Shown piece after piece: positions 45,219 through 50,261 of a stretch of 64,000 bases of DNA. The notes beneath the pieces are model-generated. The model made no database searches, was not told the origin of the DNA, and saw nothing but the letters and a program-made list of their open reading frames with translations. The position numbers were made by a program, and so were the translations under genes. Source of the stretch: Amycolatopsis sp. 195334CR (GTDB lineage Bacteria > Actinomycetota > Actinomycetes > Mycobacteriales > Pseudonocardiaceae); contig NZ_JAFJMJ010000001.1 in assembly GCF_017309385.1 (NCBI RefSeq), positions 1,426,001 to 1,490,000 of the forward strand. The letters run 5' to 3'. The number at the start of each line of letters is the position of its first letter. Position 1 is the first letter of the stretch.

Positions 45219-46991
45219 CTACTCGATCGCTTCGGAGGTTTCCAGCCAGCGCTGCTCGACCTCGTCCTTTTCCGCCTGCACGGTCTTCAGCTGGGCGTTC
45301 AGGTCCATCAGCTTCGCCGGGTCGGTGGCCGCTTCGAGCAGCTGCGCGTGCAGCTTCTGCTCCCTGTCGTGCAACTGGTCCAGCTTGCGCTCCAGCCGCG
45401 ACAGCTCCTTGCCGAGCGCCCGAACCTCGGCCGAGGACAGCTTCGGCGCCTCATCGACCGGCGCCGGCTTCTTGGCCACGGGCCGTTGCTCGGCGGCGGC
45501 CGCGGCCAGGCGCCGCGTCAGGTACTCCTCGATGCCGCCGGGCAGGTGCGTGATGCGCCCGTCGCCGAACAGCGCGTAGACCGCGTCGCAGACCCGTTCG
45601 GTCAGGTACCGGTCGTGCGAGACGACCACCATGGTGCCCGGCCACGAGTCGAGCAGGTCCTCCAGCTGCTGCAGGGTGTCGATGTCCAGGTCGTTCGTCG
45701 GCTCGTCGAGCAGCAGCACGTTCGGCTCGGCCATCAGCAGGCGGACCAGCTGCAGCCGCCGCCGCTCGCCGCCGGAGAGGTCCTCGACCGGCGTCCACTG
45801 CCGCGCCGGCGGGAAGCCCAGCTTCTCGGCCAGCTGCGACGCGGACAGCTCGTGCTTGCCCAGCACCACGCGCCCGGCGACCTGCTCGACCGCCTCCAGC
45901 ACGCGGAGGTGCCCCGGCAGGTCCTCGAGTTCCTGCGTCAGGTGCGCCAGGCTGACCGTCTTGCCCTGGATCCGGCGGCCCCCGGCCAGCTCGGTCTCCC
46001 CCGCCAGCGCCTTGAGCAAGGTGGTCTTGCCGGAGCCGTTCACCCCGACCAGGCCGATCCGGTCCCCCGGGCCGATCCGCCAGGTCACGTTGTCCAGCAA
46101 CGCTTTCTCCCCGGCGGCCAGGGTCACGTCCTCCAGCTCGACCACGGTCTTGCCCAGCCGCCGCCGGGCGAAGCTCATCAGCTCGACGGAATCCCGCGGC
46201 GGTGGCACGTCGGAGATCAGCGCCTCGGCGGCTTCGATCCGGTAGCGCGGCTTGGACGTGCGCGCCTTCGCCCCGCGCTGCAACCAGGCGAGTTCCTTGC
46301 GCGCCAGGTTCTGCCGCTTCTCCTCCAGCGTCGCGGCCAGCCGCGCGCGTTCGGCCCGCGCGAAAACCCAGTCGGCGTAACCACCTTCGTACTGCTCGAC
46401 CCGCCCGCCGACGACCTCCCAGGTCCGGCCGCAGACGGTGTCCAGGAACCAGCGGTCGTGCGTGACCACCACCAGCGCGGTCTTCCGCGCGAGCAGGTGG
46501 TCGGCCAGCCAGCGCACGCCTTCGACGTCGAGGTGGTTGGTCGGCTCGTCGAGCACGACCAGGTCCAGTTCGCCGACCAGCGCGGCGGCCAGTGCCACCC
46601 GGCGGCGTTCCCCACCGGACAGCGTGGCGGTCGGGTTGTCCAGGCCCAGCGCGGTGATCCCCAGACCCTCCACAATGGACCGCACGCGGGCGTCGGCGGC
46701 CCATTCGTGGTCGGCGTCGTAGGCGGCCAGCGCGGCGTCGCGCACGGTCTCGCCGACCAGTTCGGTGCGCTGGGTGACCACGGCCATCCGCAGCCCGCGC
46801 ACCTGGCTGACCCGGCCGCTGTCCGGTTCCGCGATGCCGGTGAGCACTTCGAGCAGGGTGGTCTTGCCACCGCCGTTGAGCCCGACGACGCCGATGCGCT
46901 CGCCCTCGCCGACACCGAGCGAGACGGCGTCCAGCAGCGGGCGGACGCCGTAGGACTTGGAGACCGATTCGAGGTTGACCAGGTTGACCAT
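45219..46991 (-). CDS. ABC-F family ATPase (ribosome-associated type)
   Basis: 590 aa with two ABC domains and no membrane segment. Domain 1: Walker A GLNGGGKTTLLEVL, signature LSGGERRRVALAAAL, Walker B LVVLDEPTNHLDVEG. Linker (about 245-300) is Arg-rich. Domain 2: GVNGSGKTTLLKAL, LSGGERRRLQLVRLL, VLLLDEPTNDLDIDT. C-terminal coiled coil about 515-585 (LSRLERKLDQLHDREQKLHAQL), as in Uup. ABC-F proteins act on the ribosome E site in translation or resistance. The ATG overlaps the ispE stop by 1 nt (TAATG). Confidence 0.93.
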   Translation of the reverse strand: MVNLVNLESVSKSYGVRPLLDAVSLGVGEGERIGVVGLNGGGKTTLLEVLTGIAEPDSGRVSQVRGLRMAVVTQRTELVGETVRDAALAAYDADHEWAADARVRSIVEGLGITALGLDNPTATLSGGERRRVALAAALVGELDLVVLDEPTNHLDVEGVRWLADHLLARKTALVVVTHDRWFLDTVCGRTWEVVGGRVEQYEGGYADWVFARAERARLAATLEEKRQNLARKELAWLQRGAKARTSKPRYRIEAAEALISDVPPPRDSVELMSFARRRLGKTVVELEDVTLAAGEKALLDNVTWRIGPGDRIGLVGVNGSGKTTLLKALAGETELAGGRRIQGKTVSLAHLTQELEDLPGHLRVLEAVEQVAGRVVLGKHELSASQLAEKLGFPPARQWTPVEDLSGGERRRLQLVRLLMAEPNVLLLDEPTNDLDIDTLQQLEDLLDSWPGTMVVVSHDRYLTERVCDAVYALFGDGRITHLPGGIEEYLTRRLAAAAAEQRPVAKKPAPVDEAPKLSSAEVRALGKELSRLERKLDQLHDREQKLHAQLLEAATDPAKLMDLNAQLKTVQAEKDEVEQRWLETSEAIE

Positions 46992-47956
46992 TACGCGTGC
47001 ACCTGCGGCGGGACGGGACGGGGATCGGTGTCGCCGCCGACCGTCCTGGCGCCGGGCACCGGCCCGTGCGCCACGCGCACGGTGCGGCAGACCCCGGCCC
47101 CGGACAGCTCGGCCGCGACTTCGAGCGCGGATTCGGCGTCCTCGCAGAGGAACGCGCAGGTCGGGCCGGAACCGGAGACCGTGCCCGCCAGCGCACCGGC
47201 GTTCACCCCGGCCCGCAGCGTGCGGCGCAGGCCAGGGCGCAGCGAGACGGCCGCGGCCTGAAGATCGTTGCCCAGCAAGAGGGCCAGCTGCCTCGGATCA
47301 CCGGAGGCGAGCGCTTCGACCACCGGGGCGTGCGAGCCGATCCTCGGTGGATCGCCCTCCTCGCGCAGCCGGTCGAGTTCGCTGAACACCCTCGGGGTGG
47401 ACAGGCCCTTCTGGTCGAACGCGAGCACCCAGTGGAAGGTGTGGCGCGAGAGCACGGGCACCAGGCGCTCCCCGCGGCCGGTACCGAGCGCGGTGCCGCC
47501 GTAGAGCGCGAACGGCACGTCGCTGCCGAGCTTCGCGGCGACCTCGGCGAGTTCGTCGCGGGTGATCTCCAGCTTCCACAGCGAGGCCAGCCCGACCAGG
47601 GTGGCCGCCGCGTCGGCGCTGCCACCGGCCATGCCGCCGGCCACCGGGATGCCCTTGCGCAGCACCACCCGGATCTTCGGCTCGCTCTCCGCGCGGCCCA
47701 CGTGCGCGGCCAGCGCCTGCACCGCGCGCCAGGCCAGGTTGTTCGCCCCGGTGGGCACGGACTTCTCGCCCTCGCCGTACACCTCGACGCCGGGGTCCTC
47801 GGTCACCGCCACGGTCACCTCGTCGGCCAGCGACAACGCCTGGAACACGGTCACCAGCTCGTGGAAACCGTCCTCGCGCAGGTCACCGACCGCCAGGTGC
47901 AGGTTGATCTTCGACGGCACCCGGACGGTGACTGGAGGCGGGACGACAGCGAGCAC
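46991..47956 (-). CDS. ispE: 4-diphosphocytidyl-2-C-methyl-D-erythritol kinase
   Basis: 321 aa from GTG 47956 (an in-frame start at 47980 adds 8 residues). GHMP kinase of the MEP isoprenoid pathway. Motif 1 [27 protein letters not shown]-binding motif 2 [23 protein letters not shown], and motif 3 [15 protein letters not shown]. Conserved [13 protein letters not shown] contains the catalytic Asp. Operon with ABC-F; ksgA-ispE adjacency is interrupted here by the riboswitch-controlled MetN-like gene. Confidence 0.96.
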
Positions 47957-47977
47957 GGGGTCAAGCCTACGTGGCGG

Positions 47978-48028
47978 CAAAAAAGTCGTGCGTGCGTAGT
48001 GCCGTTCCGGCCCCGCGCACGCACGACT
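47978..48028 (-). terminator. Strong intrinsic terminator of the MetN-like gene
   Basis: Perfect 13-bp arms (47984-47996 and 48016-48028). The minus strand continues directly into six Ts (complement of AAAAAA at 47979-47984). It starts 10 nt past the stop at 48038 and isolates the gene from ispE. Confidence 0.85.
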
Positions 48029-48037
48029 GGAGTTGCT

Positions 48038-49048
48038 TCAGGCCGCGACGCCCTGCGGGCCGCTGACCGGGTGCGTCACGTGCGCCCCGCGCTCGGCGAT
48101 CCAGGCCAGCGCGCCGTCGGCCTGGTCCCCGCGGAGGCCGATGCGGAACCGGCCGACCGGGGTGTCGCCGATCCGGGTCAGGCCGCCGCCGATGGTGGCG
48201 ATGTCGGTGCCGAACCGGGTGGCGGCCTCGGGCAACAGCGCGCCGACCGAGGCGAAGCCGATCAGCACCACGTCGACCGCGCGGTCGTAGCGGGCCGACT
48301 GCGCGCGGGTGGTCTCGATGGCGGGCAGCAGCGCCTGGGCGGTGCGGCTCGACGGGTCGACCAGCAGCGAGAGCACGTTGCCGTTCTCCACCACCTTGCC
48401 GTCCTCCAGCACCGCGACGTCGTCGCAGATGCGGCGGACCACGCCGGCGTCGGGCGTGGTGACGAGCACGGTCAGGCCCAGCTCGGCACGGGCGCGGTCG
48501 AGCGCGGTGAGCACACCGGCCGCGTCGTCGCCGTTGAGCCCGGCGGTCGGGTCGTCGGCGAGCAGGACGGCGGGCGAGGTGGCCAGTGCCTTGGCCACGG
48601 CCACCCGGCGGCGCTGCCCGGGGTTCAGCTCGGCGGGGTGCTGGCCGCCGCGCTGGGTCAGGCCGACGAGGTCGAGCAGGTTGCCGACGCGGGTGCGGCG
48701 GCGCGGGCCCTCGACGCCGAGCTGCTCCAGCGGCGAGGCCACGTTCCCGGCGACCGTGCGCTCGGGCTGCAGCGCGACGCGGGAGTCGACGATGCCGACC
48801 TGGCGGCGGATCTCCCGCAGGCGGCGGCCGTCGAGCGTGCCGGTGTTCAGCCCGTCCAGGCGGACCACGCCGCGGTCGGGGCGCTCCTGCAGCGCGACGC
48901 AGCGGGCCAGGGTGGACTTGCCGGAGCCCGCCGCGCCGACCACCCCGTAGAGCGAGCCGGCGTTGATGTCGAAGTTGACGTCGCGCAGCGCGTGAACGGG
49001 CGCGGCGTCGCCGGGGAAGGACTTGGTCAGGTTTTCGAGCGTGATCAC
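48038..49048 (-). CDS. Orphan MetN-like ABC protein with NIL domain and degenerate ATPase motifs
   Basis: 336 aa from GTG 49048. N-terminal ABC domain plus a C-terminal NIL (methionine-binding) domain of about 70 residues (VVLIGFASVGALLPEAATRFG, TPVGRFRIGLRGD). Walker A is intact (GAAGSGKST, 38-46). Other motifs are altered versus MetN: Q-loop Q to S about residue 90, signature LNPGQ (141-145), Walker B LLADD with Asp instead of the catalytic Glu (D166), H-loop His to Pro (about 199), D-loop AGLN. No metI or metQ nearby. A SAM riboswitch lies upstream and a strong terminator downstream. Confidence 0.85.
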   Translation of the reverse strand: MITLENLTKSFPGDAAPVHALRDVNFDINAGSLYGVVGAAGSGKSTLARCVALQERPDRGVVRLDGLNTGTLDGRRLREIRRQVGIVDSRVALQPERTVAGNVASPLEQLGVEGPRRRTRVGNLLDLVGLTQRGGQHPAELNPGQRRRVAVAKALATSPAVLLADDPTAGLNGDDAAGVLTALDRARAELGLTVLVTTPDAGVVRRICDDVAVLEDGKVVENGNVLSLLVDPSSRTAQALLPAIETTRAQSARYDRAVDVVLIGFASVGALLPEAATRFGTDIATIGGGLTRIGDTPVGRFRIGLRGDQADGALAWIAERGAHVTHPVSGPQGVAA

Positions 49049-49096
49049 GTGAATGCTCCAACAGCTGGGCGCGGACGCGCGCCGACCACAAGGAAG

Positions 49097-49116
49097 CACC
49101 GTCTGTTTCGACGGTG
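49097..49116 (-). promoter_or_regulatory. Leader hairpin, candidate riboswitch expression platform
   Basis: Arms CACCGTC (49097-49103) and GACGGTG (49110-49116), 6-nt loop, 49 nt upstream of the MetN-like start. No T-tract follows; it may act on translation or be unrelated to switching. Confidence 0.35.
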
Positions 49117-49247
49117 TGGCGTAAACCGGAAAGCGGCGAAGTGGGTACTGGGTCAGTCGTTGGAGCGACGACACGCACTTACCGTGCGGCGACCTTCATC
49201 CACTACTCGGCGTCGAGTCAGCATTCGCGACCGGTACACAGGATTCC

Positions 49248-49332
49248 TCCATCGGTCCTGGCGTTAGCACCTGCCCTCTCGGGTGGTTGCTGCGACTTCG
49301 GCGAGCCAGGCCTCTCAGTCGCTCGGGATGGA
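49248..49332 (-). ncRNA. SAM riboswitch (S-box/SAM-I type aptamer)
   Basis: On the minus strand the leader contains CGACTGAGAGGCCTGGC, GCAGCAACC and GGTGCTAACGCCAGG in S-box order. P1 is TCCATC (49327-49332) with GATGGA (49248-49253); the CCTGGC/GCCAGG helix and the GCAACC...GGTGC pairing follow the SAM-I core. It sits about 200 nt upstream of the MetN-like gene, and ksgA is on the other side, so it should repress the MetN-like gene when SAM is abundant. SAM-IV is an alternative subclass. Confidence 0.85.
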
Positions 49333-49403
49333 TGCACAAGGAGTACACCCGATCCGGCTCGCGAAACGCAAGTCCGTAGTCGGAGATCACACGAACAGCC
49401 GCG

Positions 49404-50261
49404 TTATCCCTCGTTTTCGGCGGCCGCGGCGATGCGGGCGAAATCCTCGACGGTGAGTTGTTCACCCCGGGTCCGTGGATCGATACCGGCCGCGGTCAGC
49501 AGGTCCCCGGCGCGTTCGGCCGAGCCCGCCCAACCGGCGAGTGCCGCGCGGAGGGTCTTGCGGCGTTGCGAGAAGGCTGCGTCGACCACGGCGAAGACGG
49601 TCTTCCGCTCGGCGGGCCGGGTGGTGGGCACGCGCTCGAAGGCGACCAGCGCGGAGTCGACGTTGGGCACCGGCCAGAAGACGGCACGCGGCACCGCGGC
49701 CACCTTCTTCGCCCGGCCGTACCAGGCGAGCTTGACGCTGGGCACGCCGTAGGTCCGGCTGCCGGGGCCGGCCGCCATCCGGTCGGCCACCTCGGTCTGG
49801 ACCATGACGAGACCGCGGGTGAGGGACGGCAGCTCGGCGAGCAGGTGCAGGACGACGGGGACGGCGACGTTGTAGGGCAGGTTCGCGACGAGCGCGGTGG
49901 GCTCGCCGACGTCGGCCTGGTGGACCCTGAGCGCGTCGGCGGGGACGACTTGGAGTTTGCCGGCCGCGTCGGGTGCGTGCTCGGCGACGGTCTCGGGGAG
50001 GCGGTTCGCCAGGACGGGGTCGATCTCGACGGCGACCACGCGGGAGCCGGTGGCGAGCAGGCCGAGGGTGAGCGAGCCGAGCCCGGGGCCGACTTCCAGG
50101 ACGAGGTCGTCTTCGGTGACCTTTCCGAGCTCGGCGATCCGGCGCACGGTGTTGGGGTCGTGGACGAAGTTCTGGCCGAGCTTCTTGGTCGGCCGCACGT
50201 CGAGTTCGGCCGCCAGGCCGCGGATCTCGGCGGGGCCGAGGAGCCCGGCTGGTTTGGTCAC
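49404..50261 (-). CDS. rsmA: 16S rRNA (adenine1518-N6/adenine1519-N6)-dimethyltransferase
   Basis: 285 aa, also called KsgA. Dimethylates two adjacent adenosines in helix 45 of 16S rRNA. Motifs: [23 protein letters not shown] motif [18 protein letters not shown], acidic [11 protein letters not shown], catalytic [19 protein letters not shown] and [13 protein letters not shown]. Follows rpfB on the same strand after a terminator (50335-50363), an arrangement (rpfB-ksgA-ispE) conserved in actinobacteria. Confidence 0.97.

Follow-up and report, generated by a model that had tools for sequence, protein, structure and literature searches.

We analysed a 64,000-nucleotide stretch of DNA, hereafter the window, in which the gene for an orphan MetN-like ABC-NIL protein lies between rsmA (ksgA; 49404-50261) and ispE (46991-47980), both named by eye from their ORFs and used as upstream and downstream synteny anchors. 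The gene, which like all other features in this paragraph lies on the reverse strand, spans 48038-49048, with a GTG start at 49048 and a stop at 48038, and encodes 336 amino acids. Its nucleotide-binding domain (NBD; residues 1-244, 48317-49048) is followed by a NIL domain (residues 258-325, 48074-48277), and the corresponding Pfam matches, ABC_tran with 93.3 bits and NIL (PF09383) with 38.3 bits, both exceed their cut-offs. A SAM-I (S-box) riboswitch aptamer (RF00162) occupies 49246-49334, with a cmscan score of 58.0 bits against a gathering threshold of 44.4 and an E-value of 7.8e-11. It is followed by a leader open reading frame (uORF; 49153-49239) for the 28-residue peptide VYRSRMLTRRRVVDEGRRTVSACRRSND, whose GTG start codon lies 7 nt 3' of a GGAG; by its position, the GGAGG at 49246-49250, which lies at the 3' strand of helix P1 of the aptamer, is the Shine-Dalgarno sequence of the uORF. 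A second GGAG (49056-49059) is the Shine-Dalgarno sequence of the orphan gene itself, and an intrinsic terminator (48028-47978; fold of -33.5 kcal/mol, z -6.2, then UUUUU) closes the unit. The earlier note on this DNA had reported a SAM-I-type aptamer at 49248-49332 and a T-tract terminator after the gene, and both were recovered by these searches; no match to RF00634, the other model named for this check, was reported, with only the best of overlapping clan matches being kept.

The interval between the uORF and the orphan gene contains the inverted repeat CACCGTC-GACGGTG (49097-49116, reverse strand), a possible hairpin or operator. Its ACCGTC and GACGGT arms recur, slightly altered, in an alignment of 14 Amycolatopsis-type leaders, with GTC/GAC invariant, and clear compensatory changes were looked for in these leaders and none was seen. 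The same segment (49116-49097) was the sole candidate for a transcription terminator in the leader; it lacks a good T-tract, and we discarded it as unsupported.

The protein shares its ABC_tran and NIL architecture with MetN of the MetNI-Q importer (E. coli 3tui, 3dhw and 6cvl; TIGR02314), and MetN is its best full-length fold match. Against the MetN equivalog TIGR02314 (NCBIfam) it scores 202.5 bits, below the cut-off of 499.7. Realignment bore out the claim of the earlier note that Walker A is kept and the other core motifs are changed: Walker A reads GAAGSGKST, whereas compared with MetN the Q-loop has Ser in place of Gln (VGIVDS), the signature is LNPGQ instead of LSGGQ, the Walker B Glu is Asp (LLADD), the D-loop Asp is Asn and the H-loop His is Pro (VTTP). 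The equivalent of Asn295 of E. coli MetN is also changed, to Ala284. Among the window's protein and the best 120 of the 3,939 homologues that passed the threshold, the Walker A Lys is present in 121 out of 121, the H-loop His in one, a Gln in the Q-loop column in two and the Walker B Glu in three. The substitutions therefore recur across the listed homologues and are not a sequencing accident. The homologues listed with organism names come from Amycolatopsis, Prauserella, Saccharomonospora and Qaidamihabitans, and one is assigned only to Pseudonocardiaceae. In a separate scan of named genomes, 30 of 52 loci were orthologues by identity, and the H-loop His was absent there too. An ABC ATPase is commonly taken for a component of a transporter, and most of the listed homologues are labelled by their sources as methionine ABC transporter or D-methionine transport ATP-binding protein, labels that could mislead metabolic reconstruction.

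We surveyed 100 genomes from 46 genera of the window's family, 88 of which have a NIL match, retrieved all NIL loci (109, not counting the window) and scored their motifs and neighbours, with metI detected by single-sequence phmmer and domain coordinates. In 37 genomes a complete metN-metI-metQ operon sits between rsmA and ispE (the fetched stretch showed no rsmA in six of these loci and no ispE in one). In 51 others an orphan metN lies between rsmA and ispE without metIQ: 48 were found through the NIL match (ispE was not found at one of these, at a contig end, and some have up to 2.4 kb of inserted sequence ahead of ispE), and three (G003, G070 and G081), all with a SAM-I aptamer and all without a Pfam NIL match, were added by a synteny search. 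The two forms exclude each other at the locus, with no genome having both, so that the metIQ pair travels with the transporter form and never with the orphan form. Both the gene and the aptamer are gone, and rsmA adjoins ispE, in four genomes (G002, G048, G071 and G080). Three more (G004, G050 and G082) have a NIL match and a metN in unlinked position only, four (G042, G075, G098 and G037) showed no rsmA within the fetched flank, and one (G011, 74% complete) had no ispE match; apart from G004, G050 and G082, these genomes lack a Pfam NIL match. By eye, four orphan loci (L118, L055, L067 and L062) have two further genes in the interval from metN to ispE, one for an MFS-like transporter, on the opposite strand, and one for a TetR-like regulator. 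Three diverged orphan MetN-NIL copies lie off the locus (L059 in G012, L103 in G052 and L057 in G010), and two of them, L059 and L103, adjoin an amine-oxidase-like gene (by eye). In a sample of 298 genomes from the order, a match with an E-value of 1e-60 or better was found in 56; 51 of these belong to the window's family and score 348 bits or more, with transporter and orphan forms counted jointly, whereas the other five score at most 227.5 bits. This gap suggests that the subgroup is confined to the window's family within the 298-genome sample.

The state of the motifs follows the form of the locus. The Q-loop Gln, LSGGQ, the Walker B Glu and the H-loop His are all intact in the 37 metIQ-bearing loci, as are all motifs in another class of 22 metN loci that have metI and lie elsewhere in the genomes (metQ in 21). 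Among the 48 scored orphans, from which the three off-locus copies are excluded, the Q-loop Gln is present in three, LSGGQ in two, the Walker B Glu in 15, the H-loop His in three and the Walker A Lys in 45, and the three orphans found by synteny have the Walker A Lys in one and the H-loop His in none. Two orphans (G022 and G060) retain every motif and are an early stage; the remaining 46 rows, referred to below as degenerate, were used to measure column conservation relative to the transporter form. This is nearly complete for NIL (0.96) and high for Walker A (0.88), with lower values for Walker B and the D-loop (0.75), the H-loop (0.71) and the Q-loop (0.49). At the far end, in five genomes of two genera (L099, L088, L127, L214 and L215), the Walker A Lys of the orphan is gone as well (SGTST). 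Nucleotide binding is thus not universal among orphans, and the motif sequence suggests that in these five it became dispensable.

Orphan genomes tend to lack the other importer components. The earlier note had seen no permease or binding-protein gene nearby, and metI and metQ, looked for at the orphan loci, were found at none. In the window's genome (9.93 Mb in seven contigs, completeness 100, contamination 2.6), the orphan protein is the single NIL match, a genome-wide search for MetQ gave no match and the best MetI match, 28.8 bits, is unconvincing, all of which sets this genome apart from one with a MetNI-Q system. A MetQ match elsewhere in the genome (E-value 4e-10 or better) was found in 18 of the 51 orphan genomes; the other 33 had no match at this level, and four of them (G015, G054, G085 and G087) had weak ones with E-values from 9e-6 to 2e-4. 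A MetI probe of 12 of these 33 genomes returned at best 30.4 bits, against 455 and 352 bits in two positive control genomes.

The loss of metIQ appears to have happened repeatedly. In a tree of metN from which the motif columns were left out, five changes of the orphan label are required, one of which is the off-locus copy L057, and well supported branches force four. On the tree of the flanking RsmA and IspE proteins (90 rows), seven changes are needed and three are forced. A single orphan clade is rejected (P-value 1.8e-64, AU test on 37 representatives of 110 rows). Together, the trees and the AU test indicate at least three losses of metIQ, with long branches and a quick tree search limiting any finer count. 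The orphans do not look like decaying genes. Their reading frame is open at all 51 loci, and the same-genus dN/dS of degenerate orphans ranges from 0.02 to 0.35 (median 0.14, 30 pairs), compared to 0-0.17 for the transporter form (median 0.08, 26 pairs). One same-genus pair with dS of 0 was left out of this comparison. Of the marks of a pseudogene, the window's gene lacks a broken frame, and the same-genus orphan pairs lack a dN/dS near 1. The same-genus ratios thus argue against pseudogene decay and for purifying selection on orphan metN, and the higher values in orphans than in transporters suggest that this selection is somewhat relaxed. The medians over all pairs (0.457 for orphans, 0.285 for riboswitch-linked transporters and 0.470 for unlinked transporters) were set aside because dS saturates between distant pairs.

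These comparative data strongly support an origin of the window's gene in a metN-metI-metQ importer operon under SAM-I control, of which it is what remained once the permease and the binding protein were lost: the motif-intact operon sits beside the same rsmA and ispE genes in 37 of the 100 genomes, and the orphan shows signs of purifying selection. The view of the earlier note that the protein derives from a transporter ATPase and is no longer a transporter part is strengthened accordingly.

The riboswitch accompanies both forms. A SAM-I aptamer precedes the orphan in all 51 loci between rsmA and ispE and in none of the three off-locus copies, and it was present in the 11 transporter loci, out of 37, that were examined with Rfam. 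Downstream of the aptamer, a three-nucleotide periodicity in the 14 aligned Amycolatopsis-type leaders brought the uORF to light. Its core, LTxRRx[VI]DxxRRTxx[AG]C (in summary form LTxRRxVDxxRRTxxAC), is found in each of the 59 leaders for which an aptamer was mapped (48 orphan and 11 transporter). The Cys, which unlike the RR and D positions was not part of the search pattern, is conserved in all 59. In the coding frame the core has a dN of 0.039 and a dS of 0.400 (22 pairs), while the two alternative frames show a dN above dS; judged by this codon pattern, the uORF is a coding sequence. A GGAG sits at the 3' end of the aptamer in 59 out of 59 leaders, the start codon of the core-bearing frame follows it at a distance of 3-10 nt in 58 leaders and of 17 nt in the remaining one, and metN, with its own Shine-Dalgarno sequence, starts 60-227 nt 3' of the uORF stop. 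In three loci (L064, L097 and L133) a longer uORF places the core 115-223 nt away from the aptamer. A strict regular expression recovered the uORF in 25 of the 30 named relatives (the rest of the 52 scanned loci being distant ABC genes), and one of the five missed loci, L162, has a uORF in which Lys replaces the first Arg. This conserved Cys-bearing uORF before orphan metN is newly seen here, having been overlooked in the earlier note. In the window, GCTCCAACG at the end of the uORF could form a helix of 9 nt with the Shine-Dalgarno sequence of the orphan gene; as a family-wide anti-Shine-Dalgarno this was rejected, with a P-value < 0.05 in two of 59 leaders and a mean helix length of 3.66 compared to 4.03 in dinucleotide shuffles.

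The uORF product resembles the Cys-rich leader peptides of the Ms5788A family (NF042933), cysteine attenuators of mycobacteria reportedly described by Canestrari in 2020, in being short and containing Arg and Cys; those peptides are leaderless, whereas the uORF is, by its position, initiated from the Shine-Dalgarno sequence in SAM-I helix P1. Of four uORF peptides scored against NF042933, the best reached 22.1 bits (E-value 8.7e-5), below the curated cut-off of 45, and the window's own gave no match at E-values up to 1. A study of Streptomyces lividans (PMC8079986) describes a leader peptide, metL, before metNIQ, which resembles our uORF in being a Cys-, Met- and Arg-containing peptide in that position but differs in sequence and in being leaderless. 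Its passages on SAM-I place this riboswitch before threonine genes and not before metNIQ. In M. tuberculosis, riboswitches are reported to act via uORFs in the B12/ppe2 (PMC11260477) and Mbox/pe20 (PMC12810186) cases. These cases and our locus share a riboswitch whose expression platform is placed so as to act on a short uORF that is translated ahead of the main gene. Our leader is unlike them, as described there, in having a SAM-I aptamer and a conserved Cys- and Arg-rich peptide, and in the 60-227 nt that separate the uORF stop from the main start, which in the M. tuberculosis cases overlap. Among the open-access matches listed in our literature search, none dealt with orphan MetN, with SAM-I in Amycolatopsis or with SAM-I combined with a leader uORF.

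The position of the GGAG at the 3' strand of P1 suggests how the leader may work. At high SAM, P1 would form and hide the GGAGG of the uORF, so that SAM binding should block uORF translation. At low SAM, the Cys-containing leader peptide would be translated and expression of the orphan gene allowed, for which Rho and polarity, reinitiation or Cys-dependent stalling are candidate routes. As for the product, we favour with moderate confidence that it is a stand-alone nucleotide- and ligand-binding regulator, made at low SAM and perhaps at low cysteine, because Walker A, NIL and the riboswitch are kept while the residues of catalysis and coupling are eroded. Such a protein would still bind nucleotide and form a NIL-bridged dimer, would hydrolyse ATP poorly or not at all, and could serve as a soluble switch through which a sulfur metabolite signals to a partner; Met, SAM and homocysteine are candidate ligands of the NIL domain. 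The C2 domains of MetN bind Met and thereby prop the NBDs apart, according to PMC10710835, and PMC12357092 reports that E. coli N295A MetNI had no L-Met bound at the C2 domain and a 28-fold higher Ki for L-Met. The residue equivalent to Asn295 is Ala in 29, Ser in 12, Asp in two, Thr in two and Gln in one of the 46 degenerate orphans, and Ser in 13, Ala in 12, Asn in 11 and Asp in one of the 37 intact transporters. Since the Met-binding Asn is Ala in the window's protein, a methionine sensor is unproven. The earlier note had called NIL a conserved methionine-binding domain and the protein a sensor or regulator: the conservation of the fold stands and the regulatory role is a fair reading of what was kept and what was lost, while "methionine-binding" overstates the case.

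Part of the same evidence could be read differently. The protein could be a non-catalytic NBD that pairs with the intact ATPase of another ABC system, as in heterodimeric transporters. The degenerate site of heterodimeric exporters carries changes of the E to D and H to Q/P/R type, which those of the orphans resemble, and the segment that follows the Q-loop, which faces the coupling helices in importers, is 98-100% conserved among the degenerate orphans (46 rows) at R97, T98, A100, G101, N102, A104, P106, L107 and E108. However, no metI or metQ was found at the orphan loci, the signature drifts too and, with a single NIL match in the window's genome, the partner would have to be without NIL; we regard such a pairing as unlikely. 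That the orphan continues to power a permease encoded elsewhere, as a shared ATPase, is very improbable: MetQ is encoded elsewhere in 18 orphan genomes and the G022 and G060 orphans retain all motifs, but the other 33 genomes have no MetQ match at the 4e-10 level (four have the weak matches), the MetI probe stayed at 30.4 bits in 12 of them against 352 and 455 in the controls, the His, Gln, Glu and signature are eroded, and the 22 unlinked metN loci have all motifs themselves.

A recruitment of the NBD to an unrelated nucleotide-dependent job, for instance at ribosomes or in DNA or RNA metabolism, with NIL as allosteric input, has precedents in permease-less ABC proteins such as ABC-F, and the second gene downstream of the orphan (45219-46991) looks, by eye, like one for an ABC-F protein. 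No sequence or fold match points in this direction, the best full-length fold match being MetN, and we hold this possibility to be quite unlikely. The stepwise loss of motifs, the disappearance of gene and aptamer from four genomes and a dN/dS above that of the transporter form would also suit a functionless leftover in slow decay. Against this speak the frame open at 51 out of 51 loci, the same-genus dN/dS of 0.02-0.35 (30 pairs), a NIL conservation equal to that of the transporters and the retention of both riboswitch and uORF, which make decay the least probable of these alternatives.

A stand-alone regulator therefore remains our preferred reading for the window's protein. More tentatively, and at somewhat less than an even chance, the family may have turned an importer ATPase into a free-standing, non-hydrolysing regulator of sulfur metabolism several times, each time after loss of the permease and the binding protein, under a two-input RNA switch in which SAM-I would govern whether a leader peptide that reads Cys is translated, allowing production of the regulator only at low SAM and perhaps at low cysteine. 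Within one family and at one locus, nature offers a graded series that runs from the full operon, through orphans with all motifs, orphans lacking the catalytic residues and orphans lacking the Walker A Lys, to the disappearance of the gene. With this series one can test which components of a transinhibited importer remain of use when there is no transport, and what a NIL domain does by itself. The combination of SAM-I and a Cys-bearing leader peptide is moreover a possible readout, on a single actinomycete transcript, of both ends of the Cys-Met-SAM pathway.

SAM-I aptamers also occur away from this locus, at sites (L045 and L155-L161) that gave no match in a first phmmer and hmmsearch search. 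The second aptamer of the window's genome (L045:4116-4249, reverse strand; C1:4630115-4630248) precedes an ORF read by eye as threonine synthase (thrC). The 3' strand of its P1 helix abuts the ribosome-binding site of that next gene, which fits translational control. Two of the genomes that lost the locus, G002 and G048, have SAM-I elsewhere (L155:4353-5090, reverse strand, and L156:5001-5090, forward strand). The L155 aptamer lies directly before a GNAT acetyltransferase-like ORF, beside cytochrome bc1/oxidase genes (all by eye), and G004, which does not have the rsmA-metN-ispE form of the locus, carries six SAM-I matches.
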